A stretch of 64,000 nucleotides of DNA from assembly GCA_007121455.1 (NCBI GenBank), contig SKKN01000001.1, forward strand, positions 1-64,000, read 5' to 3'. Position 1 is the first letter of the stretch; each line of letters starts with the position of its first letter. Made by a program: the position numbers and the translations under genes. Below the pieces are notes generated by a model, which was not told where the DNA came from, ran no database searches, and saw only the letters and a program-made list of their open reading frames with translations. Positions 17,620-36,652 of this stretch are shown here, piece by piece. Source of the DNA: Gemmatimonadota bacterium. Lineage in GTDB: Bacteria; Gemmatimonadota; Gemmatimonadetes; Longimicrobiales; Gaopeijiaceae.

Positions 17620-18798
17620 CTACTGCATGGTGCCCAAAGCCGGGGAAGGGGCCGGAGCACGGGTGTCCGCGCGGATGATCCGCCCCCCTCCGAGGAGCTG
17701 ATCTCCGGAGAAGAGCACCGCCGATTGACCGGGCGTCACCGCGCTCTGGGGGCTGTGAAGCGACAGGCGGAGCAAGGGGGAGGCCTGCTGGATCGAAGCG
17801 GGTACGGCACGGGCCCGGTGGCGGATCTGGACGAGGACCTCATCGCCCGGACCCGGAGGGGAACCGACCACCCAGTTGACTTCACCCACCTCCACACGAC
17901 TCGCATCCAGCTCATCCTTCGTGCCGACCACGACCTCGCGCGTCGCGGATCTCACCTCGATCACGAAGTGGGGCTCCGAGAAGCCTCCTCCGAGCCCTTT
18001 CCTCTGTCCGACGGTAAACCCGGCGTATCCGTCGTGCTCCCCGACGACGGTCCCGTCGGAGGTGACGATCGGCCCCGGCTCCAGGGCCGGATGGCGGGTC
18101 TCGAGCCGACGTGTGAGGAGGTCGCGGTAATCTCCTGTCGGAACGAAGCAGATCTCCTGGGACTCCGGCTTGTCGGCGGTGACGAGCCCGAGCGCCGAAG
18201 CCTGCTCCCGGACCTCCTCCTTCGTCAGGTCCCCGACCGGCAGATGAAGGACTTCGACGACGTCCGGTGGAAGGCCCCATAGGAAATAGGCCTGGTCCTT
18301 CTCCTGATCTCGGCCGCGCAGGAGTGTGGTGCCTCCCTCCTCGGACCGCTCCACCCGAGCGTAGTGACCGGAAGCGATCCCATCACAATCGAGCGCCTTC
18401 CCCCGCGCGATGAGGTCGCGGAACTTCGTATTCGAGTTGCACCGGACACAGGGGTTCGGAGTCCGGCCCTGTGCATACTCCGATACGAAGTCGTCGATGA
18501 CGTCCCGCGTGAAGGCTTCCTCCACATCGAAGACGTAATGCGGAATGCCCAGGCCGTCAGCGACTCGGCGTGCGTCGCGGATTCCGTCCAGGCCACAGCA
18601 CGTCTTCCCATGATCCACCGTGTCCTCGTAGCAGAAGGTCTTCATCGTGACACCGATGACCTCATAGCCACGTTCCACGAGGAGCGCCGCGGCGACCGAG
18701 GAATCTACCCCTCCGGACATGGCGACGAGGATACGCGGTCTCCTTCCCCCGGGAAGTACGGGGGGGGCTGCTTCGGGCTGCTTCATTGGGGAAGTCAC
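17620..18798 (-). CDS. mnmA: tRNA-specific 2-thiouridylase MnmA
   Basis: A 392-residue MnmA (TrmU), which makes 2-thiouridine at position 34 of tRNA Lys, Glu and Gln. The PP-loop SGGVDSS is at 28-34. The two catalytic cysteines are C117 (TPNPCVRCN) and C217 (QEICFVP), and GYAGFTVGQRKGL marks the tRNA-binding and beta-barrel part. Its ATG overlaps the stop of the cysteine desulfurase gene upstream (ATGA), which couples the sulfur donor with its acceptor enzyme. Confidence 0.96.
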   Translation of the reverse strand: MTSPMKQPEAAPPVLPGGRRPRILVAMSGGVDSSVAAALLVERGYEVIGVTMKTFCYEDTVDHGKTCCGLDGIRDARRVADGLGIPHYVFDVEEAFTRDVIDDFVSEYAQGRTPNPCVRCNSNTKFRDLIARGKALDCDGIASGHYARVERSEEGGTTLLRGRDQEKDQAYFLWGLPPDVVEVLHLPVGDLTKEEVREQASALGLVTADKPESQEICFVPTGDYRDLLTRRLETRHPALEPGPIVTSDGTVVGEHDGYAGFTVGQRKGLGGGFSEPHFVIEVRSATREVVVGTKDELDASRVEVGEVNWVVGSPPGPGDEVLVQIRHRARAVPASIQQASPLLRLSLHSPQSAVTPGQSAVLFSGDQLLGGGRIIRADTRAPAPSPALGTMQ

Positions 18799-19967
18799 CG
18801 TCCTACGCGCTCCAGCATGTTGATCTTCTCTACTGCGGCCACGGTCCTTCGTACCGCTTCTTCGATCTCCGGTTCATCCGTGCCGAGCCCCAGACTGAAT
18901 CGGATCGGCGTCGCCGCCTCCGCCTGCTCCCCGTAAAGGGCTTCGAGCACGTGGCTCCTTCGGCTCGCGCCGCTCGAGCACGCGGAGCCCTGCGAAACAG
19001 CGACTCCCTGGAGGTCGAGAGCCATCATCAGCGTCGCTCCGTCCACATCCCGGACTCCCACGTTCAGGATGTGCGGCGCCCGTTCCAGGCCGGCACCGTG
19101 GACGCGAAGGTCCGGAAGGTGGCGGCTCAGCCCTTCCGCCAGCGAGTCCCGCAGGCTTTCGAGTCGCTGCGCTTCCGACTCCCTTTCCCCGAGCGCGAGG
19201 CGAAACGCGGTCCAGACACCGACCGCCCCGGCAACGTCCTGGGTGCCCGGTCGAATTCCGTCCTCCTGTCCCCCTCCATAGTGGAGCGGGTCCAGCTTGA
19301 TTCCGCTTCGGAGGACGAGCACCCCCGTGCCCTTCGGCCCACCCAGCTTGTGGCCGGAAAAGGTCACGAGGTCCACCGGAGAGTCGGCGAGGTGGACCGG
19401 GACCCTGCCGAGCGCCTGGACCGCATCCGTATGGTACGGCACTCCCGCGGCTCGGCATCGAGCGCCCACCTCTGCGACGGGGAGCACCGCTCCGATCTCG
19501 TTGTTCACCCACATGATCGAGACGAGCGCGGGCTGCTCGTCGAGGAGCGCGTCCAGGTGGGCGAGATCGAGGCCTGCCTCGGGGTCGACTCCGACATGGT
19601 GGACCTCGGCTCCCTCGCGCTCGGCTTGCAAGGCCGCTTCCCGAACCGCGGAGTGTTCGATCGCAGAGACGACGATCCGGGTGCGGTCCCCGATCCGGAG
19701 ACCGGGGCGGGCTCGCCCGAGCACGGCGAGGTTGTCCGCCTCCGTTCCTCCTCGCACGAAAAAAACCTCGCCGGCGTCCACCCCCAGAAGGTCTGCGATC
19801 CCTTCCCGCGCTGTCTCGATGGAATTTCTCGCGGCACGTCCCCACCGGTGCAGGCTCGAAGGATTCCCGAAGTTCTCCGCCAGGTGGGGCTCCATGGCCT
19901 CTCGCACCTCTCCTCGAAGAGGAGAGGTGGCGGCATGATCCAGGTAGATCGGTTCAGTAGTGTTCAT
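18795..19967 (-). CDS. iscS: Cysteine desulfurase, IscS/NifS type
   Basis: A 390-residue PLP enzyme that releases sulfur from cysteine as a persulfide. From ATG 19967 the protein opens MNTTEPIYLDHAATSPLRG. The PLP lysine is K207 in FSGHKLGGPKG, H105 lies in EHSAV, and the catalytic cysteine is C330 in QGSACSSGA, the group I (IscS/NifS) loop. An in-frame TTG at 19991 would add 8 residues without a ribosome site. Co-translation with mnmA suggests it feeds tRNA thiolation; no iscU or fdx lies next to it. Confidence 0.92.
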   Translation of the reverse strand: MNTTEPIYLDHAATSPLRGEVREAMEPHLAENFGNPSSLHRWGRAARNSIETAREGIADLLGVDAGEVFFVRGGTEADNLAVLGRARPGLRIGDRTRIVVSAIEHSAVREAALQAEREGAEVHHVGVDPEAGLDLAHLDALLDEQPALVSIMWVNNEIGAVLPVAEVGARCRAAGVPYHTDAVQALGRVPVHLADSPVDLVTFSGHKLGGPKGTGVLVLRSGIKLDPLHYGGGQEDGIRPGTQDVAGAVGVWTAFRLALGERESEAQRLESLRDSLAEGLSRHLPDLRVHGAGLERAPHILNVGVRDVDGATLMMALDLQGVAVSQGSACSSGASRRSHVLEALYGEQAEAATPIRFSLGLGTDEPEIEEAVRRTVAAVEKINMLERVGR

Positions 19968-20035
19968 TCCGACCGGATTCGGGTGGTGCAACCGTTTCGC
20001 ATCAGGATGGACCGCCCTAACTTAGCGGAAGTTCC

Positions 20036-20416
20036 ATGGCGCATGGCACCGTGCCCTGCGCCTCGATCCTTCGGAGGCTCATGCGGTCCGATACTCCACC
20101 ATTTCCTGAGAATCAACCTAGGCATTTCCGGGCGACGGTCCACGGGACGGTGTTCGCGGGCCGGGATCAGCACCTGGAGAGATTGAATGTCGGCGACACC
20201 GTCCGTCTCATTGCCGATCCCCCCGACCAGAAGGCTCCGGAGGTATGGGTTCACCTCGATTCCGGAGATCCGATCGGCCATCTGCCCCCCGAAATTGCAC
20301 GCTGGCTCGCTCCATGGCTTCACCGGGGTGGCGCGGCGCGGGCCCATGCACTCAAGGTCAAGGGGGCCGAGGTGCCCAGTTGGCGAAGGCTCCTCCTGGA
20401 AGTCCGCTGCGTCTGA
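20036..20416 (+). CDS. HIRAN-like domain protein
   Basis: A 126-residue protein. After about 25 variable residues comes FRATVHGTVFAGRDQHLERL, then VGDTVRLIADPPDQKAPEVWVH, GDPIGHLPPEIARWLAPWL and a final strand LLLEVRCV. The order (G-x-x-F, LxxGDxVxLxxxPxxxxxxAVxV, IGxLPxxxAxxLA) matches the HIRAN domain, which in helicases such as HLTF binds DNA 3' ends. Standalone HIRAN proteins are known in bacteria but their role is unclear. TAACTT lies 13 bases before the start, and the gene diverges from iscS-mnmA. Confidence 0.55.
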   Translation: MAHGTVPCASILRRLMRSDTPPFPENQPRHFRATVHGTVFAGRDQHLERLNVGDTVRLIADPPDQKAPEVWVHLDSGDPIGHLPPEIARWLAPWLHRGGAARAHALKVKGAEVPSWRRLLLEVRCV

Positions 20417-20463
20417 ATCAGGCTCGCGCTCCCTCGCGTGCGGTGGCGCATCGGCGGAGCCGG

Positions 20464-21186
20464 TCAGAAGGTGGATACGGACAGCTCGCCGAGACTTTCG
20501 GTGGACAGTGGCTCCCGCATCCAGAAGGGCTCGCCGTATCCTACCCGGATCAAGGACCCGGATCGTGCAGCGTGCACGCGGACCTGTTCAGCAAAAGGCC
20601 GCGACCCGCCCGGAAACACCTCGCCTGCGGACACCGCGCCTTCGAACTGAGACTCGAAGCAGGCGAGGGCTTCGAGCTTTCGGTCGATCGTCGCCGTGAT
20701 GTCCACCACCAGGCTGGGGTGCGGAGCATCCTCGCGAAAGGCGATCGCATGGACGATCTTTTCCGGTCGGTGGGGTGCGCCATCCGCGTCGAAGTTCTTC
20801 AGGCCGGAGAGGAAGGCTGCATCGTAGGTGAGTTGGGCAGCCTCCCGGTGGTCCGGGTGCCGACCCTCCAACCAGTGGGTCACCACGACTCTCGGGCGCA
20901 GGGCACGGAAGATTCCCGCGACCCTTTGTCGTGCTTCGAGCGTGTTGCGGAGGGCGGAATCGGGAAGCCCGGCTCGTCGTCGCACCGCGAGCCCGAGCAC
21001 CTCTGCCGCCCGCTCCGCCTCGCGCCGCCGCGTCTCCACCGAGCCCTTGCTTCCCATCTCACCATCCGTCAGGTCGAGGACACCCACCCGCTCACCTCGA
21101 TCCGCACTTTTCAGCAGGGTTCCCCCACACAACAGCTCCGCATCGTCCGGGTGTGCCATCACCGCCAGCAGGTCCAGTGCACTCAT
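20464..21186 (-). CDS. bshB1: N-acetylglucosaminyl-malate deacetylase BshB1 (LmbE family)
   Basis: A 240-residue zinc deacetylase. AHPDDAE (H12, D15) and EGRHPDHREAA give the metal ligands of the LmbE/PIG-L family. The downstream GLKNFDADGAPHRPEKIVHA and CFESQFEG blocks resemble BshB1, which removes the acetyl group from GlcNAc-malate during bacillithiol synthesis. bshA and bshC are not in the window, so the pathway is inferred from the subfamily alone; a mycothiol or general LmbE role is the alternative. It is encoded 90 bases downstream of a secreted protein on the same strand. Confidence 0.82.
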   Translation of the reverse strand: MSALDLLAVMAHPDDAELLCGGTLLKSADRGERVGVLDLTDGEMGSKGSVETRRREAERAAEVLGLAVRRRAGLPDSALRNTLEARQRVAGIFRALRPRVVVTHWLEGRHPDHREAAQLTYDAAFLSGLKNFDADGAPHRPEKIVHAIAFREDAPHPSLVVDITATIDRKLEALACFESQFEGAVSAGEVFPGGSRPFAEQVRVHAARSGSLIRVGYGEPFWMREPLSTESLGELSVSTF

Positions 21187-21276
21187 TCATTCTCCGTTTT
21201 GTCGTCGACCCGAAGAGCTCGATCCTCGTCGTGCAGCGGAACCTGGAGTTCCGGACTGCCGGCGCCAGCCCATGCT

Positions 21277-21996
21277 TCAGCCCGGAACCGCCTCACGGAT
21301 CGCTCGGTACCCCGATCCGGGCTCCTCAACGCGAAGGACGCGCCCCTGAGCATCGAACCAGAGGAGCCATTCCTCGCCTCCGCCTTCCAGTTGGAAGCGG
21401 TGAGCCTGGACGGTCTGTCCGCCGATCTGCAAAGACTCCGTTCCGGTGGGGGTGAGGCGAAGCTGGACCTGACGACCCTGCCGAGGAATGATCACGGGGA
21501 CTGTTCCTTCACCCCTGTCGAGCAGAGGTTGAAGGAAGTAGAACTGGTGGGCGACTCCCCGGTCGAGGAGGAGTGTCCCGGTCTGCGCGCGGTACTCCCG
21601 CTCCTGCTCACCCCGAGCAGAGACTACCTTCGTGTGGAACCGTCGGTCTCCCAGAGTGACGTAGATCTCTTCTTCGCTGGATCCGGAGACTTTCACCTGG
21701 TAGGCGGATATGGCGAGCTCGGGACCCCGGGCCTGGAGGGCGGGCCGGAGTTCGATCGCTCCCTCCGGGAGGTTCATCTGAATCTGTGCCGTGGCGATGA
21801 CCTGCGCATCGTCCCCGGAACCGGATCTCCGGATCGAAAAGGACTCATCGCCGGCGCTTTGGTCGTTGAGGAAGAGGATGAAGCGTCCCTCGTCCAGCGG
21901 CACGTTCTGTCCGAGGAGGGTGGAGGCCCCGAGGGACCCCGCCGTGACCGAGAACAGTACGAAGCTCAGAAACCCATGGATCCTCATCATCGCCAT
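21277..21996 (-). CDS. Secreted protein of unknown function
   Basis: About 239 residues with an N-terminal signal peptide (FLSFVLFSVTAGSLGAS). The mature part is strand-rich (GRFILFLNDQSAGDESFSIR, VIATAQIQMNLPEGAIELRP, HRFQLEGGGEEWLLWFD). The opening 'xxFxxFxNxxxxGxExFxI' suggests a DUF6134-like periplasmic beta protein, but I am not certain of that. Three ATGs (21996, 21990, 21987) could start it; none has a strong ribosome site. It diverges from the large kinase gene and is upstream of bshB1. Confidence 0.6.
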   Translation of the reverse strand: MAMMRIHGFLSFVLFSVTAGSLGASTLLGQNVPLDEGRFILFLNDQSAGDESFSIRRSGSGDDAQVIATAQIQMNLPEGAIELRPALQARGPELAISAYQVKVSGSSEEEIYVTLGDRRFHTKVVSARGEQEREYRAQTGTLLLDRGVAHQFYFLQPLLDRGEGTVPVIIPRQGRQVQLRLTPTGTESLQIGGQTVQAHRFQLEGGGEEWLLWFDAQGRVLRVEEPGSGYRAIREAVPG

Positions 21997-22136
21997 CCAG
22001 TCCGGGAGGAACGCTCCGCCAGCCCATTCCGGGCCGTCGGCTCCGGAACCCGGTCCCATACCCCCGCCCTCCTCTTCGGGTTCGGAAGGGCAGGGTGGAG
22101 TGCGCTTCCCTGCTTCCCGCTCCGTCCAGGAGGTTC

Positions 22137-25100
22137 ATGAGCGAGCAGACTTTCCAAAGACTGTCGCACCGTATTTCTCAGGACGAGTGGGGCATCGGTG
22201 CATGGATCACGGTGCTCTCCCTGGCGGCCTGGGTACGCTGGCTGGACCCTGCTCTCCTCGCTCTCGCCGCCGTCGCCCTCGTTCTGTCCCTCCTGGCGCC
22301 CCGATTTCGGTCGGGCGCCGGGGCGTTCGCCGCCGTCGCCCTCATCCTGGCGGTGCTCGCGGCTTTCGGAGGGAGTCGGGAGCTCGACCGCATCGCTTTG
22401 GATTGGGAGTCGATTCGCGAGGTCCGTGAGGACGAGGTGCAGGCCCTCCTCAGCGGGGCGATGGACCGAACGATCGAGGAAGGGGACCTGGCGCTCGAGC
22501 TCCTCCTCGCGACGCCAATCGAGGAGGCTACGGCGAGCCCAACGCTCGCCTCCATACGTCGCGCGACCCGCATGGAGGCGCTCGCGATCTTCGACGGCGA
22601 CGGCCAACTCGTGTCCTGGGACGGCACGCATCACGGACGGATTCCCGCCGCTGCGAGGGCGGGGGAAAGCCTCTACCTCTACGCTGAGCGTCCCCTTTTC
22701 GGATACCTCTATTTCACGGCGCCGATGCCGGATGGAGAGGGCACCGCAATGGCCGCCCGGCTTCTCAGGAGCGACCTGCCTCCTACGTTGAACGGAGCGG
22801 ATGGGGGGTTCGCGTCCCAGTTCGAGGCCGCGACGGGGGCCGTGGTTCAGATCTCTACTGCGGAGCGGATCGAAGGGGAAAGCGTCTGGGACCTACGTTG
22901 GGAGAACGAGGTTCTCCTCAGCGTGGCTCTCGCACCCGTCACCCAGGCACAGCTTCGCGAGCGCCTCGTCGCCCGATGGGGCGGAATCGTTACCGTCCTC
23001 CTGCTCCTCGCGTGGCTCCTGCTGGCGCGTGCCACGGCGGCGAGCGGGGGAAGCCGGCTGCCTGCAGGGCTGTCTGTGGTGGCGGTAGTCCTTCTCCTGC
23101 CTGTGGGCGCGCTCATGGGACTGCCGGCGCTTTTTTCGCCTGCTGATTTCCTCTTGCCGGGTCCCCTCGACATCACGCTGGGAAGGCTCCTCGTGCTGGG
23201 AGCCGTCGGCGCCCTGCTCGTCGGCTTCCTTCGCACCCCCTCCGGCGGGCTCGTGCGCGCCCTGCTCGGGGTCACGGCGGCGCTCGCCGGCTATGCCACC
23301 GTCCTCTGGTTTTTCAGGAATGGAGCAGCTCCGGAGCTGCTCGCGGGGGGCGATATCGAGTGGGTGGGTTATACCGTGACGCTCGGTCTCTTCCTCTCGC
23401 TCGTCGGTGCGGTGACCCTCCGCCCGATCCGAAGCGATGACCTGACCGGCCGGCGCTATGGCTTTCTCCTTCTCTCGCTCGTCGCGGCGGCGGCGTTGAG
23501 CATCGCCTTGACGTTCCGGGTCTTCACGGGGCCCGTTCTGCCGTGGAGCGTGCTCCTCCTCTGGGCGCTTCCCTTCCTCTTCGCGACGATGGGCCTCGAC
23601 TCCGGGGACGGGATGCGCGCCCCCGGCCTTCGCTGGCTCGTGGCGATCGTGCTCGGGATGAGTCTGGCTCTTCCATTCGCGTTCGGAGACCGGGTCACTG
23701 CTCGCATGACGGTCGCCGAGCGGGAGGTCGAGCGTCTCGGTACCCGGGTCGATCCCTATCTCGAGTTCCTGCTGCACCGGATGGGAGAGGAAGCCGCGGA
23801 ACTGCGGCGTGCCGACCGGGATCCGGTCGAGATCCTCTACGGGGCATGGATGGGAAGTGGCCTGGGTTGGGAAGGATATCCCATCTGGTTGACCCATTGG
23901 AGCCCAGACGGCATGCCGGTGGAGGAGTTGATGGTGGGAGTCTCCGAGGAGCGTCCTCCCATCCCAGTGGAGTTGGTGGACGAAGCAGACGACACGGGGA
24001 ATGTGGTCATTCGACGGTTCGAGTTCGCGGACATGCACTACGTCGCCGTCGTCCCGCTTCCGGAGGGGGGCAGGGTGACCGCGGTGCTCCCGCCCCGCCG
24101 GGCTCTCGCGCCGGCCTCGCCTCTCGGACCCCTCCTGACGCCGGACCGGCCAGGTCGTGAGACTCTGGTTCTGATCCCGCTGCTTCCGGGCGAGGTGCCC
24201 GGGGAGACGGGTGTCTTCCGGTGGATCCCGACCGAGGAAGGGTGGCAAGCGGAGCTCTACCTCGCATACCCCGATGAGGTCTACCACGCCCACTATATCG
24301 TGGACCTCCCGGGGCGCGTCCTGCTGGTCGCTCGCGGGGCGCTCGTCACGCTCGCGCTCGTGCTTGCGCTCGGGCTCCTCTGGCTGACGGGGAGGTGGCT
24401 CGCAGGCGGGAGCCTGGCCCGCGCATTGCACTGGCCCCGAATCGCCTCGTCCTTTCGGACCCGGGTCACGCTGGCGCTCTTCGCCTTTTTCCTCGTCCCG
24501 ACCCTGGTGTTCGGCATGATGGCCTACCGTACGCTTCACGGTGCCTCGGTCCGGGCGGCGGAGGTGTTGGCGGAACGAGCGGTGGAAGATGCGGCAGGGT
24601 GGTTCCTCGAGTTGGATCGCGAGATGGGCCAGCTTTCGCGGCGTGTGGGCTCCGATCTCCTCCTCTACGACAGGGGGGAGCTTACGGACAGCTCCCTCCC
24701 GGCCCTGACCGAGTTGGGTCTGTACCCTGGATGGCTCCCGCGTCGGGTCCATCGAACGATGGAGGAGGGGGAAGAGCTCATGATGACCCTTCCCGCTTCC
24801 CTGGGAGGTTGGGATTATGTCGTCGCCTATCGACGGGTGACCGGGCAGCAGGTCCTCGCCGCACCGGCGCCGGTGGAGGTGGGCGCCATGGCGCTTCGAC
24901 AGCGGGAGATCACGGACCTCCTCGCCTTCGCCGTGGTGCTCGGTGCCGGGCTTTCCATCCTGCTTGCACTCGTGGTGGGAAGGGCTCTTGCCCGCCCGAT
25001 CCATACGCTGCAAGTCGCGTCGGAGCGGGTAGGGGCGGGCAACCTCGGCGTTCACATTCCGGAGGACCGAACGGACGAGTTCGGTTCGGTGTTCTCGGCG

Positions 25101-26213
25101 TTCAACCGAATGGTTCGGAGGTTGAGGAGAGCACGGAAGGCGCTGATTCGATCGACCAGAAGAAGTCGGGCGATCGTGGAGGAGGTCGCGACGGGGGTCG
25201 TGGCTCTCGATTCGGAGGGGCGCGTCGTGCTTGCGAACCCGATGGCGGAGAACCTCCTCGGCGTCGAACTCCCCTCCGGGACCCACCTCTCGAGCCGAGA
25301 GGGGGATCGTCGCGGCGGCGCGGATGAGTTCTTCCGGTGGCTCGCGGGGTACTTCCGGGACGACCTGGAAGAGGAGAGCGTCGAGTTGCAAGTGGCATCC
25401 CGGCGGATCCGCGTGCGCGCCCGGCGCATTTCGCGGCGAGGCCCCAGGGGCGGGGCAGTGGTGAGCCTCGAGGATGTGACGGACGAGCTTCGCAGCGAAC
25501 GCATCCTCGCCTGGGGTGAGATGGCAAGGCAGGTGGCGCACGAGGTGAAGAATCCCCTTACACCGATCAAGCTCGGGGTGCAGCACATCCGACGAGCCTG
25601 GCGGGATCAGCGGCCGGATTTCACCCAGATCCTGGAGGGGAACGCGGACGCGATCCTCCGGGAGATCGATCGCCTGGCGAAAGTCGCCACCGGATTCTCA
25701 CGGTTCGCGGCTCCCGACGGTGGGCCGGACCTTCCCCTCGAGCCGGTGAGGGTGGAAAAGGCCGTGGACGAGGTGCTGACCCTCTACCAGGCCGGCGATG
25801 GGCCAGTGGAGTTCGACTTCGAGGCCGAAAGCGGCATCGAATCGGTGCGGGCTCGAGAGGCGGAGTTCAAGGAGGTGCTCGTGAACCTGCTGGAGAACTC
25901 GCGTGCAGCGCTCTCGAACGGAGGTGCGGTCCGCATCAGCGCCCGATCGCGGGGGACGCGCGTGGAGGTCACGGTCGAGGACGACGGTGCGGGAATCCCC
26001 CGGGAGGATCTTCCTCGTATCTTCGATCCCTACTTCTCCACCCGTTCATCCGGCAGTGGGCTGGGACTCGCGATCGTCCGAAGGCTTGTGGAGTCGTGGG
26101 GCGGCGAGGTGACCGTGGAGAGCGTGCAGGGGGAAGGGACGACCGTCCGTTTGTCCCTCCCGCGGTGGTCGGTGAGGGAGGGGGAGACTGGCGGCGATCC
26201 TGAAATTGGGTAA
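22137..26213 (+). CDS. Very large NtrY-like transmembrane sensor histidine kinase
   Basis: A 1358-residue kinase started by a perfect AGGAGG (22128-22133) before ATG 22137. It has about 14 membrane helices in three groups. Helices near 20-80 lead into a first extracytoplasmic domain (to about 280). A cluster of eight helices (about 285-525) leads into a second domain (to about 715). Two more helices enclose a third domain, ending with a helix near 930-950. Then follow HAMP (about 950-1000), PAS (about 1010-1110), the H-box ARQVAHEVKNPLTPIKLG with H1135, the N-box LLENSRAAL near 1251 and GSGLGLAIV near 1305. The H-box matches NtrY kinases. The sigma-54 regulator at 37309 is the natural partner candidate in this window. 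Confidence 0.9.
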   Translation: MSEQTFQRLSHRISQDEWGIGAWITVLSLAAWVRWLDPALLALAAVALVLSLLAPRFRSGAGAFAAVALILAVLAAFGGSRELDRIALDWESIREVREDEVQALLSGAMDRTIEEGDLALELLLATPIEEATASPTLASIRRATRMEALAIFDGDGQLVSWDGTHHGRIPAAARAGESLYLYAERPLFGYLYFTAPMPDGEGTAMAARLLRSDLPPTLNGADGGFASQFEAATGAVVQISTAERIEGESVWDLRWENEVLLSVALAPVTQAQLRERLVARWGGIVTVLLLLAWLLLARATAASGGSRLPAGLSVVAVVLLLPVGALMGLPALFSPADFLLPGPLDITLGRLLVLGAVGALLVGFLRTPSGGLVRALLGVTAALAGYATVLWFFRNGAAPELLAGGDIEWVGYTVTLGLFLSLVGAVTLRPIRSDDLTGRRYGFLLLSLVAAAALSIALTFRVFTGPVLPWSVLLLWALPFLFATMGLDSGDGMRAPGLRWLVAIVLGMSLALPFAFGDRVTARMTVAEREVERLGTRVDPYLEFLLHRMGEEAAELRRADRDPVEILYGAWMGSGLGWEGYPIWLTHWSPDGMPVEELMVGVSEERPPIPVELVDEADDTGNVVIRRFEFADMHYVAVVPLPEGGRVTAVLPPRRALAPASPLGPLLTPDRPGRETLVLIPLLPGEVPGETGVFRWIPTEEGWQAELYLAYPDEVYHAHYIVDLPGRVLLVARGALVTLALVLALGLLWLTGRWLAGGSLARALHWPRIASSFRTRVTLALFAFFLVPTLVFGMMAYRTLHGASVRAAEVLAERAVEDAAGWFLELDREMGQLSRRVGSDLLLYDRGELTDSSLPALTELGLYPGWLPRRVHRTMEEGEELMMTLPASLGGWDYVVAYRRVTGQQVLAAPAPVEVGAMALRQREITDLLAFAVVLGAGLSILLALVVGRALARPIHTLQVASERVGAGNLGVHIPEDRTDEFGSVFSAFNRMVRRLRRARKALIRSTRRSRAIVEEVATGVVALDSEGRVVLANPMAENLLGVELPSGTHLSSREGDRRGGADEFFRWLAGYFRDDLEEESVELQVASRRIRVRARRISRRGPRGGAVVSLEDVTDELRSERILAWGEMARQVAHEVKNPLTPIKLGVQHIRRAWRDQRPDFTQILEGNADAILREIDRLAKVATGFSRFAAPDGGPDLPLEPVRVEKAVDEVLTLYQAGDGPVEFDFEAESGIESVRAREAEFKEVLVNLLENSRAALSNGGAVRISARSRGTRVEVTVEDDGAGIPREDLPRIFDPYFSTRSSGSGLGLAIVRRLVESWGGEVTVESVQGEGTTVRLSLPRWSVREGETGGDPEIG

Positions 26214-26304
26214 CTTGAAAGCGGACCCCGACAGGTGCTTCGGTCCACCAGATGACGGCTCATCGTTTCGAAATAGAGCGTTTCTCACCCTTCACCCCTA
26301 TCGA

Positions 26305-26934
26305 ATGCCGAATCCCACAATCGGCTCCCGCGACGCCCGTCCCGCCGCTCCGGCTCCTCTTGCCAAACAGGGGCCCCACCGGTTTTTGGATCCCCTGCAG
26401 GTTGCTCGGTGGCTCGAACGCAAGAAGGATCGACTGGCCGATCGGTGGCTTGCAGAGATCCGTTCCCGAGGGATCCGGGACGAAGGGGAGCTCGGGGACA
26501 TCGTCGACGAGTTCGTCTGCCTGCTCACCTCCCTCCTCCCGGGCTTGATGGGTCCGCTGAAGGACCAGGTGGAGCCACTGTGGCATCAGGCGGCGGAGCT
26601 CTATGGGAACGCGGGAGCGCTTCGCGGCCTCGCCTCGGGTGAGGCGACCGAAGAGTTCCAGCTTCTCCGGGAAGTCCTCATCCGCCAGCTCTATCTCGAC
26701 CCCCCCGGCGACGATCTGCGCGCGTTGGCTCTGCGGGAGGTGTTGGTCCTGAACCGGATCGTCGACGATGGAGTCACCTTCGCGGGTGTGGGTCACACCG
26801 ACTCCCTCTTCTTCGCGCTCTTCCAGGGAAACGGGGTATCCGACAGCCCCACGACCGACGTCGTGGACGAGCTCCGGGGACAGGTCGAGGCGATCCGCAG
26901 CGAAGCGGAGCGGCTCGGCGCCCTTCAGACCTGA
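26305..26934 (+). CDS. Helical RsbRD_N-like sensor domain protein
   Basis: A 209-residue all-helical protein with no membrane segment. ERKKDRLADRWLAEIRSRGI, IVDEFVCLLTSLLPGLMGPL, LRGLASGEATEEFQLLREVL and ALREVLVLNRIVDDGVTF resemble the N-terminal RsbRD_N domain found on stress-signalling co-antagonists and some kinases, but here no output domain follows. A C-terminal coiled coil (VVDELRGQVEAIRSEAERLG) may give dimers. ATG 26305 is chosen by the start of plausible coding sequence; the ribosome site is poor. It lies 91 bases after the large kinase and may belong to the same signalling unit. Confidence 0.5.
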   Translation: MPNPTIGSRDARPAAPAPLAKQGPHRFLDPLQVARWLERKKDRLADRWLAEIRSRGIRDEGELGDIVDEFVCLLTSLLPGLMGPLKDQVEPLWHQAAELYGNAGALRGLASGEATEEFQLLREVLIRQLYLDPPGDDLRALALREVLVLNRIVDDGVTFAGVGHTDSLFFALFQGNGVSDSPTTDVVDELRGQVEAIRSEAERLGALQT

Positions 26935-27097
26935 CCGGGATCGCTCCCTCCTCCTCCCCCCCTCCTCCTCTCCCTCTTCCTCGAGTCCGGCCTCGGTGCG
27001 GGTCGTCCGCTCCACGGAACCCTGGGGAACCGACTACGGTAGTGGAGCCGGCCGAATCGAGTGGATCCATGACACAGGCATTCGAGGGGGAGTCGAA

Positions 27098-28576
27098 ATG
27101 ACGGTCGAAGGGCTCGAAGGGAACGGGAGGCAGAACCTCGGCGACATGCCTCCGGAGGAGTTCCACGCGGTCGCGTCCGAGGTGATCGAGTGGGTGGCAC
27201 GGTATCTGGATCAGGTTGAAGATTACCCGGTCCTCGCACAGGTGCGTCCTGGCGATATCCGCTCTCGGCTTCCATTGTCCGCCCCGGAGAGAGGAGAGTC
27301 GTTCGATCGGATCCTCTCCGATTTCCAGAAGGTGATCCTGCCCGGCATCACCCACTGGAATCACCCTTCGTTCCACGGCTACTTCGCCGTCACCGGATCG
27401 GGTCCGGGCATTCTGGGAGAGATACTTACGGCGGCGTTGAACGTGAACGCCATGGTCTGGCGCAGCTCTCCGGCCGGGACGGAGCTGGAGCAGCATACGC
27501 TCGACTGGATCCGGGATCTGCTCGGGTTGCCCGACGCTTTTCAGGGCGTGATCAACGACACCGCGTCCCACAGCTCTCTCTACGCACTCGCCGCTGCCCG
27601 TGAGTGGGCGTTCCCGGAGGCACGGGAAGTCGGCCTGGGAGGGGGTCCGAGAGGGCGGATCTACGCGTCCACGGAGGCCCACTCGTCGATCGAAAAAGCG
27701 GCGCTGACCCTCGGGCTCGGCCGACAGGGAGTGAAAAAGATCGAGGCCGACGAGGCGTACCGGATGCGACCGGATGCGCTCCGGGCGGCCATCCTCGAGG
27801 ACCTGGCCGACGGGATCCGGCCCGTTGCCGTCGTCGCCACGGTCGGCACCACCTCCTCGAGCAGCGTGGACCCGGTCGACTCCATCGCGGATCTGGCGAA
27901 GGAGTTCGGCCTCTGGCTGCACGTGGACGCGGCGTATGCCGGATCCTCGGCGATCGTACCGGAGCTTCGCCCCCACTTCCGAGGCTGGGAGCGTTCCGAC
28001 TCGGTCGTGTTCAATCCTCACAAGTGGCTCTTCACGCCGGTCGACTGCTCTGTTCTCTACTGCAGCCGACCCGACGTGTTGCGGGGCGCGTTCAGCCTCA
28101 CGCCCGAGTATCTCAGGACCCAGGAGGAAGGCTCGGTCCGCAACCTCATGGACCACGGGGTTGCACTCGGCCGGCGGTTCCGCGCCCTCAAGCTCTGGTT
28201 CGTCCTCCGGTACTTCGGTGCCTCCGGGATCCGCGATCGGATCCGGGAGCATGTGCGGCTTGCCCGCTATTTCGCGGCGCACGTCGAAGCCAACCCGAAC
28301 TGGGTGCGCACGGCGCCGGTTCCCTTCAGCACGGTGACCTTCCGCTATCTGGGGGAGGATCTCACCGGAGAGGAAGAGGACGCGCTGAACGAGGAGCTCC
28401 TGGAGCGCGTGAACGCTACGGGAGAGGCCTTCCTCTCCCACACGCGGCTCGGGGGGCGGATCACGCTTCGCCTCTCGATCGGTAACCTCCGGACCCGGGA
28501 GGAGCACCTGGACCGGACGTGGCAGATCCTCGAACGAGCGGCCCGGGAGGTGGACGAGCGCGCCCTGGTGCAGTGA
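27098..28576 (+). CDS. Aromatic-L-amino-acid decarboxylase (group II PLP decarboxylase)
   Basis: A 492-residue PLP enzyme of the DDC/TDC family. WVARYLDQVEDYPVLAQVRPG, THWNHPSFHGYFAVTGSGPG, NDTASHSSLYALAAAREWA, LHVDAAYAGSSAIVPELR and NPHKWLF (PLP lysine K309) follow the family order. Such enzymes decarboxylate L-tryptophan, tyrosine, DOPA or phenylalanine to arylamines; the substrate cannot be fixed from sequence. GAGGGGGAG (27084-27092) sets ATG 27098. It is convergent with the transhydrogenase operon, ending 22 bases from pntB. Confidence 0.93.
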   Translation: MTVEGLEGNGRQNLGDMPPEEFHAVASEVIEWVARYLDQVEDYPVLAQVRPGDIRSRLPLSAPERGESFDRILSDFQKVILPGITHWNHPSFHGYFAVTGSGPGILGEILTAALNVNAMVWRSSPAGTELEQHTLDWIRDLLGLPDAFQGVINDTASHSSLYALAAAREWAFPEAREVGLGGGPRGRIYASTEAHSSIEKAALTLGLGRQGVKKIEADEAYRMRPDALRAAILEDLADGIRPVAVVATVGTTSSSSVDPVDSIADLAKEFGLWLHVDAAYAGSSAIVPELRPHFRGWERSDSVVFNPHKWLFTPVDCSVLYCSRPDVLRGAFSLTPEYLRTQEEGSVRNLMDHGVALGRRFRALKLWFVLRYFGASGIRDRIREHVRLARYFAAHVEANPNWVRTAPVPFSTVTFRYLGEDLTGEEEDALNEELLERVNATGEAFLSHTRLGGRITLRLSIGNLRTREEHLDRTWQILERAAREVDERALVQ

Positions 28577-28598
28577 AGGAAGGGGATCGAGCAGCCCG

Positions 28599-29984
28599 TC
28601 AACCCAGCTCTCGAATCTCTTTCACCAGTCCGGAAAGGGATTCTTTCGCATCACCGAAGAACATCATCGAGCGGTCCATGTAGAAGAGCTCGTTGTCGAT
28701 GCCGGCGAAGCCCGGGCTCAAGCTCCTCTTCAGGATGACGATGTTCCGTGCCTTGTCCACGTTCAGGATCGGCATCCCGGCGATCACGCTTCCCGGGTCC
28801 CGTGCCGCAGGGTTCACCACGTCGTTCGCCCCCACCACAACCACCACATCCGTCCTCTCGAAGTCCGGGTTGATCTCGTCGAGGTCGAAGAGCCGGTCGT
28901 AGGGCACGTCGGCTTCCGCGAGGAGCACGTTCATATGCCCCGGCATCCGACCGGCCACCGGATGGATCGCGAACCGAGCCGTCACACCGCGTTCCTCGAG
29001 GAGGTCCATGAGCTTCCGCACCTCATGCTGGGCCTGGGCCACCGCGAGCCCATAGCCCGGGACGAAGACCACGGACCCCGAGTAGGAGAGGAGCATCGCC
29101 GTCTCCTCGGCGTCGACGCTGCGCACCTGCTTGTCTCCATCGTCCACGGCTGCCGCCCCGTCCACCCCTCCGAATGCTCCGAACGCGACGTTCGCGAGCG
29201 ACCGGTTCATGGCCTTGCACATCAGCTGGGTCAGGATCAGCCCCGCAGCCCCCACGAGCGCTCCGCTGATGATCAGGATGTTGTTGCCCAGGACGAACCC
29301 CGCCGCGGATGCGGCCAGCCCGGAATACGAGTTGAGAAGGGAGATCACCACCGGCATGTCGGCGCCTCCGATGGGGATCACGAGCAGGACTCCGAGGAGG
29401 AAAGCCAGCGCGAGGAGGCCGAGGTAGAAGCGCTCGTCGTGCACGCCGGATCCGAGATAAACCGCGATGCCGACGATGGCGAGGAAGAGCAAGAGGTTGA
29501 AGGACTTTTGGAGTGAAAACGTGACCGGACTCCCGGTCACCACTCCCTGAAGCTTTCCGAACGCAATCATGCTTCCGGAGAACGTCACGGTGCCGATCAG
29601 CGTCGAGAGGGCGATGGTCGCGCCGTCCGAAACCGGGATCGTCTCCGCCCCGGTCACCCGGTAGAACTCCGCGGCGGCAACGACCGCGGATGCGCCTCCG
29701 CCGAGCCCGTTGAAGATCCCCACGAGTTGGGGCATCGCCGTCATCTGGACGCTTCGTGCGAGGACCGCTCCGATCAGGGAGCCCAGAATCAGGCCAAGGG
29801 CCACCGTCCTCCAGTCCAGAATGTCTTGTTCGAGAAGGGTGACGACGATGGCGAGCAGCATCGCGGAGGAGGCGAAGAGGTTGCCCCGGCGAGCAGAGGC
29901 GGGTGAACCGAGGAGCTTGAGCCCGAAGACGAAGAGGATCGCAGAGACGATGTAGGCGAGATCCACGGCGACGGGCGGGATCAT
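28599..29984 (-). CDS. pntB: NAD(P) transhydrogenase subunit beta
   Basis: A 461-residue subunit with about nine transmembrane helices in the first 270 residues (LAYIVSAILFVFGLKLL onward; IFNGLGGGASAVVAAAEF is the conserved loop). A C-terminal NADP-binding domain III contains VVFVPGYGLAVAQAQHEV, FAIHPVAGRMPGHMNVLLAEA, DVVVVVGANDVVNPAA and SPGFAGIDNELFY. With PntA it couples hydride transfer from NADH to NADP+ to proton re-entry. It is the last gene of a minus-strand operon pntAA-pntAB-pntB. Confidence 0.97.
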   Translation of the reverse strand: MIPPVAVDLAYIVSAILFVFGLKLLGSPASARRGNLFASSAMLLAIVVTLLEQDILDWRTVALGLILGSLIGAVLARSVQMTAMPQLVGIFNGLGGGASAVVAAAEFYRVTGAETIPVSDGATIALSTLIGTVTFSGSMIAFGKLQGVVTGSPVTFSLQKSFNLLLFLAIVGIAVYLGSGVHDERFYLGLLALAFLLGVLLVIPIGGADMPVVISLLNSYSGLAASAAGFVLGNNILIISGALVGAAGLILTQLMCKAMNRSLANVAFGAFGGVDGAAAVDDGDKQVRSVDAEETAMLLSYSGSVVFVPGYGLAVAQAQHEVRKLMDLLEERGVTARFAIHPVAGRMPGHMNVLLAEADVPYDRLFDLDEINPDFERTDVVVVVGANDVVNPAARDPGSVIAGMPILNVDKARNIVILKRSLSPGFAGIDNELFYMDRSMMFFGDAKESLSGLVKEIRELG

Positions 29985-30051
29985 CGGTCTCTCATCCGGG
30001 GATCCCAGGGTGAGGGGAGGTACCGAGGACGGGGTCGCACTCTCTCATCGC

Positions 30052-30330
30052 TCACCTCCGCCTGAACATCTTGAGCATCCGGTCCGTGACGAGGAAGCCG
30101 CCGACCACGTTGATCGTGGCCATCACGATGGCCACGACCCCGAGGATCGTCACGAGGAGTGTGTCCGCTCGAGCCGAAACCACGATCGCCCCGATCACCG
30201 TGATGCCCGAGATCGCATTCGCTCCGGACATCAGCGGAGTGTGGAGGGTCGGTGGGACCTTCGTGATGACTTCGAACCCGGCGAGCATCGCGAGGACGAA
30301 GACGTACAGGCCGATGATCAGCTCACCCAT
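30052..30330 (-). CDS. pntAB: NAD(P) transhydrogenase subunit alpha, membrane part
   Basis: A 92-residue protein with three helices (GELIIGLYVFVLAMLAGFEV, TVIGAIVVSARADTLL, LGVVAIVMATINVVGGFLV) and the conserved loop TKVPPTLHTPLMSGANAISG. It corresponds to the C-terminal membrane domain of E. coli PntA, here a separate gene as in Rhodospirillum rubrum. Its ATG at 30330 overlaps the end of the upstream gene by 8 bases, so the two are translated together. Confidence 0.95.
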   Translation of the reverse strand: MGELIIGLYVFVLAMLAGFEVITKVPPTLHTPLMSGANAISGITVIGAIVVSARADTLLVTILGVVAIVMATINVVGGFLVTDRMLKMFRRR

Positions 30331-31582
30331 CGGAATCCTCCGTTTCGGGCGCTCCAGGCTCCTTTCTCTCTCCGGATCCACCTCTGCCTTCCTTCTCACC
30401 CCTGTGGAAGGCGAGATCGGCTTCGCCCCGCTCAGCGAGAGCGGCAGCCACACGCGGGTGCCGGATCTCGCCCGCGTGCGTCACGCAGCATCCGGTCACG
30501 ATCTCGTCCTCCCAATCCGGGTCGATCCGTTCTTCCCGGACAAGGTGCAGGAGGAGGGAGCCGATGTTTCGTCCATACATCTGACTCGCGTGGGTCGGAA
30601 GCTCGGACGGAAGATTGGTCGGCCCGAGGATACGCACGCCATGTCTCTCCACCGTCGTATCCATCTCGCTCAGGGCGCAGTTGCCCCCCGAGGCCGTGGC
30701 CATGTCCACGATGACCGAGCCGGGCTTCATCGAGCGGATCATCTCTTCGGTGAGGAGGAGGGGCGCGGGACGCCCCGGGATCTGGGCAGTGGTGATCACC
30801 ACATCCATCTCCTTCGCATGGAGGGCGATCAGGCGCAGCTCTTTCTCGTGCTCCTCGTCGGAGAGCGCGCGGGCGTAGCCCTCCGTGGTCTCGGCGTCTT
30901 CCTCGAGCTCCGCCTCGACGAACTTCGCGCCCAGGCTCTCGACCTGTTCCTTTACCGCCGGCCTGACGTCGAAGGCCGAGACCGTCGCGCCGAGCCTGCG
31001 GCACGTCGCGATCGCCTGCAAGCCGGCGACCCCCGCGCCCAGGACGAGGACCTTGGCGGGAGGCACCGTACCCGCGGCGGTCATGAGCATCGGAAAGAAT
31101 CGGCCGAGGTTCGTGGCTCCGAGGAGAGCCGCCCGGTACCCTCCGACCGTGGCCTGCGACGACAGGGCATCCATCTTCTGCGCCCGCGTCACCCGGGGGA
31201 CGAGCTCCAGGGAGAAGGTGGTCACCCCCCGCTCGGCCAGCCGCTCGATGGTCTGGATGCGCTGGAGCGGGTCGAGCAGGCCGATGAGCACGGATCCTTC
31301 CCGAAGGACTCCCACCTCGTCCCGCTCTTCCTCGGCGGCGTCGAGCGGAGCTTGCACCTTCAGGATCGCATCCGCGTTGTCGAGCACGCGTTCGAGTCCC
31401 GCGACGACCTCTCCACCCGCCTCTTCGTACTGCTGGTCTGGAAAGCCTGCGGAAAGTCCTGCGCCGGCCTCTACCACCACCGTGACGCCGGCATCCTGGA
31501 GGGGTTGGAGTGCGGAGGGGACGAGAGCGACGCGACGCTCACCGGATCGAAGCTCCCGGAGCACTGCAACCGTTATCGGCAA
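30323..31582 (-). CDS. pntAA: NAD(P) transhydrogenase subunit alpha, NAD-binding part
   Basis: A 419-residue soluble domain I. It opens LPITVAVLRELRSGERRVAL, contains SSQATVGGYRAALLGA, the NAD fold VLVLGAGVAGLQAI, the RPAVKEQVESLGAKFVE block, and TTAQIPGRPAPLLL then GSVIVDMATASGGNC. I place the start at TTG 31582 because AGGAGG lies 6-7 bases upstream and homology begins there; the open frame extends much further without family similarity. A charged, Glu/Gly-rich C-terminal tail replaces the membrane helices that are encoded by the next gene. Confidence 0.93.
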   Translation of the reverse strand: MPITVAVLRELRSGERRVALVPSALQPLQDAGVTVVVEAGAGLSAGFPDQQYEEAGGEVVAGLERVLDNADAILKVQAPLDAAEEERDEVGVLREGSVLIGLLDPLQRIQTIERLAERGVTTFSLELVPRVTRAQKMDALSSQATVGGYRAALLGATNLGRFFPMLMTAAGTVPPAKVLVLGAGVAGLQAIATCRRLGATVSAFDVRPAVKEQVESLGAKFVEAELEEDAETTEGYARALSDEEHEKELRLIALHAKEMDVVITTAQIPGRPAPLLLTEEMIRSMKPGSVIVDMATASGGNCALSEMDTTVERHGVRILGPTNLPSELPTHASQMYGRNIGSLLLHLVREERIDPDWEDEIVTGCCVTHAGEIRHPRVAAALAERGEADLAFHRGEKEGRGGSGERKEPGAPETEDSDG

Positions 31583-31966
31583 GCGAGCCTCCTCCCATGG
31601 ACACCTGGATCCGGACCCGGGTCGTCCCGGGAGTCCGGAAATGCCCTCCGTCAGCACAATGGTGCCGAAGACGTCCGTAATGCAATGCTTATCGCACCCG
31701 GGTCCGTATGGGGCCGGTCGAAGGGGCGCCGTTGTCCGGACCGGACTCTCCGTTCGGACCCTCCGGAAACGCACCCGTCCGCAGATGCACGCCCACACCT
31801 CTCCCGCCCCACTCGATGGCCACTGCCCGACTCGAGGTGGCGATCTGGCTTCTCGGCGTCTCCCTCGCGCATGGAGCCGCCCACGCGGCCGGTGCATCCT
31901 CAATGGGACGATCCGCGGCCACCGACCTTTCAGCTCAGGTAATCCACTCTCTCGAGAGGAGTGTCC
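31583..31966. other. Divergent intergenic region, 384 bases, no supported gene
   Basis: This space between pntAA (minus) and comM (plus) should hold both promoters, but I find no TTGACA/TATAAT-like pair with proper spacing on either strand. Short frames on both strands read as arginine- and proline-rich noise with no ribosome site. TAATCC at about 31940, just before comM, is the only weak -10 candidate. Confidence 0.6.
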
Positions 31967-33508
31967 ATGCTCGCACAGATCACCTCGGCTGCGATCCGCG
32001 GCATCGACAGCTTTCTCGTGAGGGTGGAGGTGAATCTCGGCGGAGGGCTTCCGTCGTTCTCGGTCGTGGGGCTGCCGCAAGGGGCGGTGCGTGAGGGACG
32101 AGATCGTGTGTGGGCGGCTCTCGGAAACGTCGGCATCCAAATCCCACCACGGAAGATCACGGTGAATCTTGCGCCGGCCGACGTGAAGAAGGAGGGAAGT
32201 GCCTTCGATCTCCCCATCGCGGTAGGGCTTCTCGTGGGGACGGGCCACCTGCCCCGTGAGCGGGCGGAGGGGCCGGCGCTCGTCGGGGAGCTCGGGCTCG
32301 ATGGAACGCTCCGTCCGATCCGCGGGGCCCTTGCGGTGGCCGAGCGTTGCCGCCGGGAGAGGATTGCCGAGCTGATCGTGCCGAGGGTGAACGCAAGGGA
32401 GGCGGCGGTGGTGGAGGGCGTGCGGGTCCGGGGCGCCGGAAGCCTGGAGGAGGTGATGAGGCACCTCCGAGGAGCGCGTGTCCTTCCCGTGGCGGCACCG
32501 GCCCCCCTCGACTCCCCCTCCGGCGAGGAGGGAGGGGAGGAGGGGCCGGACCTGCTCGACGTGCGAGGCCAGGAGGTCGCTCGACGAGCCATGGAGGTCG
32601 CGGCTGCCGGCGGTCACAATCTCCTGATGATCGGTCCTCCTGGAGCGGGAAAAACGATGCTCGCCCGTCGAATGCCCGGGATCCTCCCGCCTCTCGAGTT
32701 CGAGGAAGCTCTCCAGGTGACGACGGTGCACTCGGTGGCCGGAATCCTTCCGCCCGCGGTGAGTGTCGTGACGAGGCGACCCTTCCGGGCGCCCCATCAT
32801 ACGATCAGCACCGCCGGCCTCGTGGGTGGCGGTCGGCCGATCCGGCCCGGAGAGGTGAGCCTGGCGCACCACGGCGTGCTCTTTCTGGACGAGCTCCCGG
32901 AGTTCCACCGGAACGTCCTCGAGGTGTTGCGGCAGCCTCTCGAGGAGGGGCACATCACCGTATCACGGGTGACCGAGACGGTGCGCTACCCCGCCCGGTT
33001 GACCCTCGTCGCCGCGATGAACCCCTGTCCGTGCGGATATCATGACGAGCCGGAGGGGCGCTGCACGTGTGATCCGGCTCGCGTGCGCCGGTATGCAAGC
33101 CGGATCTCCGGCCCGCTCAAGGACCGGATCGACCTCCACGTTCATGTGCCCGCCGTACCCCTGGAGCGACTCCGAAGCTGGAAGTCGGGCGAGTCGTCCG
33201 GGGAAGTGCGGAAGCGGGTCGTCCGCGCCCGTCGGGTACAGGGCGCCCGCTACCGATCGGAGCAGGGCACGTGCTCGAACGCGGAGCTGAGCCAGAGCGG
33301 GATCGATGAGTGGTGTGCACTCTGTAGCTCCGGAGAGAAACTCCTGCGGACCGGGGCCGTCCGGCTTCGGCTTTCCGCGCGGGCGGTCACCCGTGTGCTC
33401 AAGCTCGCCCGAACGATCGCGGACCTCGACGACCGGGAGCGGATTCGCCCCGACCATCTCGCCGAAGCGCTCCACTTTCGGTCTGCGGAAGCGGGGGCGG
33501 GGACCTGA
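31967..33508 (+). CDS. comM: YifB/ComM family Mg-chelatase-like AAA+ ATPase
   Basis: A 513-residue ComM/YifB protein. The N-terminal Lon-like domain (LVRVEVNLGGGLPSFSVVGL, PADVKKEGSAFDLPIAVGLL) is followed by an AAA+ domain with Walker A IGPPGAGKTMLARRM, Walker B VLFLDELPEF and the cysteine cluster MNPCPCGYHDEPEGRCTCDP. ComM acts as a hexameric helicase promoting branch migration in natural transformation. GAGAGGAG (31953-31960) points to ATG 31967 rather than the in-frame GTG at 31961. Confidence 0.95.
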   Translation: MLAQITSAAIRGIDSFLVRVEVNLGGGLPSFSVVGLPQGAVREGRDRVWAALGNVGIQIPPRKITVNLAPADVKKEGSAFDLPIAVGLLVGTGHLPRERAEGPALVGELGLDGTLRPIRGALAVAERCRRERIAELIVPRVNAREAAVVEGVRVRGAGSLEEVMRHLRGARVLPVAAPAPLDSPSGEEGGEEGPDLLDVRGQEVARRAMEVAAAGGHNLLMIGPPGAGKTMLARRMPGILPPLEFEEALQVTTVHSVAGILPPAVSVVTRRPFRAPHHTISTAGLVGGGRPIRPGEVSLAHHGVLFLDELPEFHRNVLEVLRQPLEEGHITVSRVTETVRYPARLTLVAAMNPCPCGYHDEPEGRCTCDPARVRRYASRISGPLKDRIDLHVHVPAVPLERLRSWKSGESSGEVRKRVVRARRVQGARYRSEQGTCSNAELSQSGIDEWCALCSSGEKLLRTGAVRLRLSARAVTRVLKLARTIADLDDRERIRPDHLAEALHFRSAEAGAGT

Positions 33509-33717
33509 ACACCTCGGGAATGCGACCGAGGCCCGGGCCGATCCGGCCGCACCGCCGCGGCTGCCCGAGGAAGCCCGGGGGACGTGGTCTCGTCGGCGAG
33601 CGTGCGGACGCAGGGGGTCCGGGGTAGAATGTAGATGGCGCGCCACACGGATTGCTTCGGACCCGGTCCGGACCTCGGGTGCAGCGCGATGTCGCGATTC
33701 GGATGCCGGGAGTCTGC

Positions 33718-34662: not shown

Positions 34663-34697
34663 GTTCCCGCTCCCTTCCGGCCCGCTCGCCGGTTCGG

Positions 34698-34727
34698 TTG
34701 TACCCGGTCCCCCGGGCCGGTTAACTT
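34698..34727 (+). promoter_or_regulatory. Possible promoter of the second desulfurase gene
   Basis: TTGTAC (34698-34703) and TAACTT (34722-34727) are spaced by 18 bases. Both boxes are weak, but TAACTT/TACCTT hexamers recur ahead of other transcription units in this window. Transcription would start near 34734, leaving an 89-base leader. Confidence 0.4.
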
Positions 34728-36642: not shown

Positions 36643-36652
36643 GGGGGAGCCC

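Follow-up and report, generated by a model that had tools for sequence, protein, structure and literature searches.

In the NtrY-NtrX two-component systems of proteobacteria, the genes for the sensor kinase and its AAA+ regulator are adjacent. To our knowledge, the signals of NtrYX-type kinases are mostly open. In R. sphaeroides, NtrYX has been linked to the cell envelope (PMC7240162). In Bordetella, genetic evidence indicates that PlrP, an exported DUF4390 protein, holds back the phosphatase activity of PlrS, a kinase of the NtrY family, probably by way of the PDC domain of PlrS; the same paper also mentions NtrZ of Caulobacter and raises such partners outside the proteobacteria as a possibility (PMC13001219). 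Here we describe a giant NtrY-like sensor histidine kinase encoded at 22137–26213 on the plus strand of a 64,000-nucleotide stretch of DNA from a Gemmatimonadota bacterium (positions 1 to 64,000 of contig SKKN01000001.1, assembly GCA_007121455.1; hereafter the window). With a probability of about 0.72, this kinase serves as the sensor in a two-component pair of the NtrY-NtrX type and is built from an ordinary NtrY core and an N-terminal sensor module of ∼755 residues. Its likely partner is an NtrX-like regulator encoded at 37309–38718. The kinase shares with proteobacterial NtrY the order of the core domains and, like it, has an AAA+ regulator of the NtrX kind as its likely partner. In contrast, it has two further PDC regions as well as a membrane block of eight helices, and the genes for kinase and regulator are mostly 5–75 kb apart rather than adjacent.

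Architecture of the kinase

The reading frame encodes 1358 residues, from an ATG at 22137, with an AGGAGG just 5′ of it in the sequence, to a stop codon that ends at 26213; coordinates, frame, and size in the original prediction proved exact on re-reading. The window corresponds to contig C19 of a 3.53-Mb genome in 80 contigs. When the kinase was used as a single-protein query of the named genomes, no relative matched, but an alignment of 30 sequences returned 133 relatives, 80 of which were examined as loci. A search of plasmids gave no match. The stop-to-stop frame spans 1,270–1,500 codons in 71 of these 80 named loci (970–1,710 across all of them), and the region from residue 4–67 to about residue 1000 can be aligned with 53 other sequences at 33%–63% identity. 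This preservation of frame length and the alignment exclude a chance open reading frame. Two plus-strand open reading frames upstream of the kinase, at 18786–20186 and 20245–22140, are unlikely to be genes; conservation there is stronger for the minus-strand frames of nifS, bshB1, and DUF6134.

The C-terminal part carries a conventional kinase core. HAMP (24975–25127; PF00672, E 3.9e-14), PAS (25161–25298; PF13188, E 2.4e-5), HisKA (25512–25679; PF00512, 25.2 bits, just under the cut-off of 26.9), and HATPase_c (25860–26165; PF02518, E 4.5e-27) together span residues 947–1343, and the phospho-acceptor H1135, in the motif HEVKNPLTP, is kept in 30 of 30 sequences. Residues 773–1343 follow the order transmembrane helix, PDC, transmembrane helix, HAMP, PAS, HisKA, and HATPase, as in NtrY. 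The DHp sequence around the phospho-histidine, WGEMARQVAHEVKNPLTP, is NtrY-like and close to that of a second NtrY-like kinase in the same genome (G000, contig C41, ∼180978–183028). The gene for this second kinase adjoins that of an NtrX paralogue 48% identical to the 37309 regulator. Domain order and DHp sequence thus support the NtrY-like assignment of the C-terminal part. The 25 highest of its 87 NCBIfam matches include no NtrY model, the first of them being AtoS (222 bits against a cut-off of 646), and Pfam gave no match named for NtrY in the kinase or its orthologues (30 sequences). Since the ntrX-like gene is not adjacent to the kinase gene, we call the protein NtrY-like and do not file it as NtrY. 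The models suggest that residues 773–1358 look like an ordinary NtrY, and that residues 1–755 would be an addition.

Within residues 1–940 of the kinase no Pfam match was found; among 30 orthologues HAMP was the only shared match, and nine other families matched one member each. This region is described from an AlphaFold2 model of residues 1–1000, computed from 54 sequences of the window and the named loci (predicted local distance difference test score, pLDDT, 88.9; predicted template modeling score, pTM, 0.85). The model contains 14 membrane helices, or 13 if residues 20–35 and 38–52 are taken as one; membrane ends were set by hydropathy where a model helix extends into an outer domain. Three helices stand at the N terminus (residues 20–35, 38–52, and 60–79; 22194–22373), a position also consistent with the charge pattern, eight form a middle block, two flank the segment before the third outer domain (727–755 and 773–797; 24315–24527), and the last precedes HAMP (925–948; 24909–24980). 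Family-mean hydropathy gives ∼13 hydrophobic segments, and the loop charges agree with an N terminus inside and three domains outside. The about 14 helices, three extracytoplasmic domains, and eight-helix middle block that had been proposed from the sequence are thus borne out by model, hydropathy, and loop charges.

All three outer domains are predicted to adopt the PDC/Cache fold. Outer domain 1 (residues 80–283; 22374–22985) is double-PDC/Cache-like: residues 88–274 superpose on LuxQ (2hje; Z 10.8, root-mean-square deviation [rmsd] 4.1, 160 residues aligned), KinD (4jgq; Z 10.7, rmsd 3.2, 162 aligned), and DctB (Z 9.6). It shares the fold of these sensor domains, but sequence identity is only ∼8%–12%, and here three PDC regions occur in one chain. 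Residues W161, G163, H165, G167, P170, Y190, and Y192 of this domain are invariant in 30 sequences. Outer domain 2 (517–726; 23685–24314) appears to be a single PDC-like domain with a C-terminal β section, residues 530–652 matching WalK (4ywz; Z 8.6, rmsd 4.0, 106 aligned). Outer domain 3 (798–924; 24528–24908), a single PDC/sCache-like domain, sits where ordinary NtrY has its periplasmic domain, and residues 799–921 resemble the domains of formate chemoreceptors (8py1; Z 9.6, rmsd 3.7, 115 aligned). Values of Z 7–8 are common in this comparison tool, and those of the outer domains are only moderately higher; PDC folds make up most of the match list, however, and they cover the greater part of domains 1 and 3 and roughly half of domain 2. 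In the 30 sequences, Pfam gave no match to a Cache family.

The eight-helix block (residues 284–516; 22986–23684) comprises helices 284–302, 308–327, 348–362, 372–396, 406–427, 439–461, 470–486, and 494–516, and was predicted with confidence when modeled alone (pLDDT 92.3, pTM 0.88). It has no Pfam match and no Foldseek match in the PDB at E 0.001 or better. In the VIA comparison, which covered the 477 chains ranked by Foldseek and so is no proof of a new fold, the best row reached Z 6.3 over 60 residues only. The block is a confidently predicted membrane domain with no recognized fold. The original prediction had called it transporter-like, and a transport domain through which the kinase reads substrate flux would suit eight helices placed between outer domains and the weak transporter rows of the PDB comparison. 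These rows do not hold up over length, as none covering at least 100 residues exceeds Z 4.5, which is within the noise of the tool. Conservation points the same way. At a threshold of 80% of 54 sequences, the block conserves W293, P322, L348, G349, W409, W476, P479, W500, P513, and W516, and no charged residue of the block helices reaches that level. Transport is therefore unlikely as the function of the block, and a kinase that reads substrate flux is very improbable; a sensing role is possible. Multi-helix membrane sensors are known from other kinases, such as those with 7TMR, MASE, or, in CbrA, SSS domains. The block resembles these in standing ahead of the kinase, but none of the three is among the 10 Pfam families matched at E ≤ 1 by any of the 30 sequences. 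A profile of the block matched 53 places in 51 of 58 genomes, all 53 overlapping kinase places, so that at this sensitivity the block is found only in this kinase. That the extra domains might belong to a known sensor family turned out to be true of the three outer domains and not of the eight-helix block.

Pairing with the NtrX-like regulator

The gene at 37309–38718 on the plus strand, 11.1 kb from the kinase (26213 to 37309), as the original prediction had put it, encodes a sigma-54 response regulator with receiver, AAA+, and Fis-type domains. NtrX is the best of its 125 NCBIfam matches, with 464 bits. Reading of the sequence gives D68 as the candidate phospho-acceptor and GSFTGA at residue 230, as against GAFTGA in the sigma-54 loop motif; rpoN is present in the same genome. 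The earlier proposal that this regulator fits the kinase is supported by co-occurrence, conserved gene order, and joint loss, which together strongly suggest that it is the likely partner.

Of the 58 relatives from the family and order of the window, 52 carry kinase and regulator, G038 has the kinase only, G015 the regulator only, and G014, G027, G030, and G032 neither. Across 200 genomes sampled from the phylum, with that of the window among them, 157 have kinase and regulator, 5 the kinase only, 6 the regulator only, and 32 neither; the Fisher value of 8.5e-26 for this co-occurrence ignores relatedness. In the 58 relatives, regulator paralogues at 46%–50% identity, including the only match of G032, were excluded, and partial matches in G039 and G048 were counted. 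The genome searches scored just the top candidates from an initial pass, and at least one kinase, that of G120, escaped them; the phylum counts of absence for the kinase, the regulator, DUF6134, and the 55247–56428 kinase described below are therefore upper bounds. Several of the 11 discordant genomes can be accounted for. Three of the five with the kinase only (G038, G039, and G207) have pieces of the regulator at contig ends, and of the six with the regulator only, G120 does have the kinase and G140 has a diverged giant kinase. The gene order is similarly constant. The regulator lies downstream of the kinase on the same strand in 28 of 29 relatives with both on one contig, at 5.3–27.9 kb, and in 43 of 44 such pairs from other families (f4–f6), at 5.4–74.4 kb; the latter distances rest on 47 genomes entered, 44 of them with both genes on one contig. 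Taken together, 71 of 73 same-contig cases show this arrangement.

The joint absence of the two genes is the strongest evidence for pairing. In G014 and G162, DUF6134 is followed directly by a decarboxylase gene, with no kinase between them, and the genes that flank the regulator elsewhere are 220–235 bp apart with the regulator absent. The regulator slot is also closed in G201 and G194, to 320–370 bp. In all four of these regulator-less genomes, the membrane-anchored protein of the window that precedes the regulator is still in place. In G173 (L173 and L188), a stub of the first ∼100–130 codons of the kinase remains and the regulator is broken into two frames, an apparent joint decay; G033, of the same genus, has both genes intact. 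In G165 and G097 (family f7), the slot is filled by a frame resembling aldehyde dehydrogenase, a label given by eye. Too few recognizable genes surround the slot in G139 and G218 to judge it, and in G027 the flanks of the slot are gone as well. The losses were assigned using labels of family and genus rather than a tree.

These data also bear on whether the kinase acts on another regulator, its link to 37309 reflecting no more than an ancestral order of genes and their common disappearance from reduced genomes. Both genes do lie among many housekeeping genes in a stretch that is conserved, and several genomes without the two are small (1.6–2.6 Mb). However, the flanking genes stay where the two are missing, and genomes lacking both include ones of 3.0–4.8 Mb in families f7 and f9. 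A control histidine kinase of the window, at 55247–56428, was matched in each of 16 named genomes without kinase and regulator and, by comparison of lists, in at least 30 of the 32 such genomes; rpoN was retained in 19 of 20 genomes examined, G145 being the miss. We therefore regard a different target with inherited order as quite unlikely. The control kinase itself, a 393-residue protein encoded between serS and uvrD and found in 175 of the 200 phylum genomes, has no regulator gene as either neighbor; it was rejected as a partner of the 37309 regulator because it is kept in genomes without that regulator.

Several observations weigh against a kinase-regulator pair of the NtrYX type. The regulator scores below the NCBIfam equivalog cut-off for NtrX (464 against 600 bits). 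Six of the 11 discordant genomes remain, G088 and G229 with the kinase only and G096, G156, G205, and G213 with the regulator only; of the two discordant cases among the 58 relatives, G038 is explained by its contig-end pieces but G015 is not. The pair is inverted in G043, with the regulator upstream and 24 kb away, and in G230 the two genes are 333 kb apart on opposite strands. A separation of 5–75 kb within an otherwise conserved stretch means that order alone could be inherited, and the evidence for the pair is computational.

For the NtrY-NtrX-type pair, we infer a path of signal flow and phosphotransfer with the envelope as the sensed compartment. In the model, the N-terminal module consists of three helices, a double PDC domain, the eight-helix block, another PDC domain, and a further helix. 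The PDC domains and the eight-helix block may sense signals from the periplasm or the membrane; these signals would converge on the last helix and HAMP and could set the balance of kinase and phosphatase activity at H1135. Output to transcription would run through D68, the AAA+ domain, and the Fis-type DNA-binding domain of the 37309 regulator. PMC13001219 and PMC7240162 frame this suggestion of an envelope function. Across much of a class, a single giant NtrY-like kinase is retained together with a single regulator, and the natural double losses are ready-made controls, which makes the pair a concrete system to test.

The membrane-anchored protein mentioned above (36611–37312, plus strand; start at 36611 or 36770, uncertain) belongs to no family recognized by Pfam, its anchor being assigned by eye, and its 3′ end shares 4 bases with the beginning of the regulator gene.

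The divergent DUF6134 gene and other neighbors

On the minus strand at 21277–21996, divergent from the kinase, lies a gene for an exported DUF6134 protein, with a signal peptide recognized by eye; DUF6134 was matched in 41 of 51 orthologues. The gene is divergent from the kinase in all 72 named loci with enough upstream sequence (the other 8 of the 80 start ≤741 bp from the kinase match and were left out), as well as in 19 of the 20 loci examined from other families, where no other tested gene of the window was as constant. Of the 136 phylum genomes that have both, the placement count covers the 121 with both places listed: 117 are divergent with 87–1137 bp between the matched parts, and in the other 4 the genes are on different contigs, so that the two are divergent neighbors whenever they share a contig (117/117). 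Presence is less strict. Besides the 136 genomes with both, 26 have the kinase without a DUF6134 match at E 1e-6 (families f4 and f5 account for 25), 24 have DUF6134 without a kinase match, and 14 have neither; 22 genomes without kinase and regulator retain DUF6134. Unlike the kinase-regulator pair, DUF6134 is thus constant in adjacency where both are present and only loosely coupled in presence. The protein has no PDB match, and a literature search on DUF6134 returned no paper.

One proposal is that DUF6134 is a periplasmic third component that binds a PDC domain and biases the kinase between its two activities, as proposed for PlrP and NtrZ. As in PlrSR-PlrP of Bordetella and NtrZ-NtrY of Caulobacter, an NtrY-family kinase is linked to a small exported protein with a PDC domain as the likely contact, and the constant divergent placement (117/121; 72/72 named loci) together with the published case of PlrP, which likely works via a PDC domain (PMC13001219), speaks for it. 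In contrast to those systems, the family is DUF6134 and not DUF4390, the gene is divergent, and the link is one of gene neighborhood. Of the 162 kinase genomes, 26 have no DUF6134 match, 24 genomes have DUF6134 without a kinase match, and the 22 genomes that keep it without the pair differ from the situation of PlrP, which according to PMC13001219 always colocalizes with ntrYX. Given also the absence of a PDB match, a third component is unlikely. A DUF4390 protein of the PlrP family was itself considered and rejected: it was matched in 4 of 10 genomes, in 2 above the cut-off, and in the three of these with a kinase (G230, G127, and G074) it lies hundreds of kb from it.

Alternatively, DUF6134 may be a main target gene, the pair switching on the divergent promoter. 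Constant placement at 87–1137 bp would suit such an arrangement, and the persistence of DUF6134 in kinase-less genomes agrees with an effector that has an independent function. However, a search for a sigma-54-like site in 45 DUF6134-kinase intergenic regions gave no signal (mean 10.4 against 10.3 in shuffled sequence), and 26 kinase genomes have no DUF6134 match. In loci with a gap of at least 700 bp, moreover, a creatininase-like gene, identified by eye, separates DUF6134 and kinase in at least 35 of 37 (for example L067, L073, and L085). We consider this target-gene reading rather doubtful. The creatininase-like gene, again by eye, also adjoins DUF6134 in the kinase-less family f9 (L175).

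A broader and speculative reading, with a low chance of being correct, would join these elements: the block would be a membrane-sensing domain of unsolved fold private to the kinase, the three PDC domains and, in most lineages, DUF6134 would compare the periplasm with the state of the bilayer, and the NtrX-like regulator would adjust the envelope. If true, this would be a three-part NtrYX-like system outside the proteobacteria, of the sort raised as a possibility in PMC13001219.

Downstream of the kinase, a small protein at 26386–26934 is found in 65 of 80 named loci and in none of the 20 loci of other families, with weak RsbRD_N similarity in 14 of 27 sequences; on these grounds it was set aside as a partner of the kinase.

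Distribution of the kinase

With residues 1–900 as query, the kinase was matched in 53 of the 58 relatives from its family and order, its own genome included, as one gene except for split matches and pieces on several contigs. The 30-sequence profile (E ≤ 1e-20) matched 162 of 200 genomes of the phylum Gemmatimonadota, in families f1–f6 of the class; G120 is a false negative of this search, with a kinase gene beside DUF6134 at E 1e-107. The kinase had been described as exceptionally large. It is indeed large, nearly twice the typical length of NtrY, but with this distribution it is not exceptional, being the usual form in the class. It is an architecturally new, well-conserved NtrY-like kinase and probably old in the class. 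Large NtrY-like kinases may also occur in Bacteroidota. Judged by titles and the starts of abstracts, none of the papers listed on NtrY, NtrX, histidine kinases, Cache domains, transmembrane helices, and Gemmatimonadetes or Gemmatimonas describes this kinase. In family f8, a frame of 1471 codons in G140 has a core 33% identical to the kinase and a strongly diverged sensor part, which suggests that this kinase type is more widely spread. The named relatives are metagenome assemblies titled Gemmatimonadetes or Gemmatimonadota, Gemmatimonadales, Longimicrobiales, or BD2-11, apart from four titled Gammaproteobacteria (L058, L071, L082, and L117); these four carry the kinase in a Gemmatimonadota neighborhood and are probably mislabeled.

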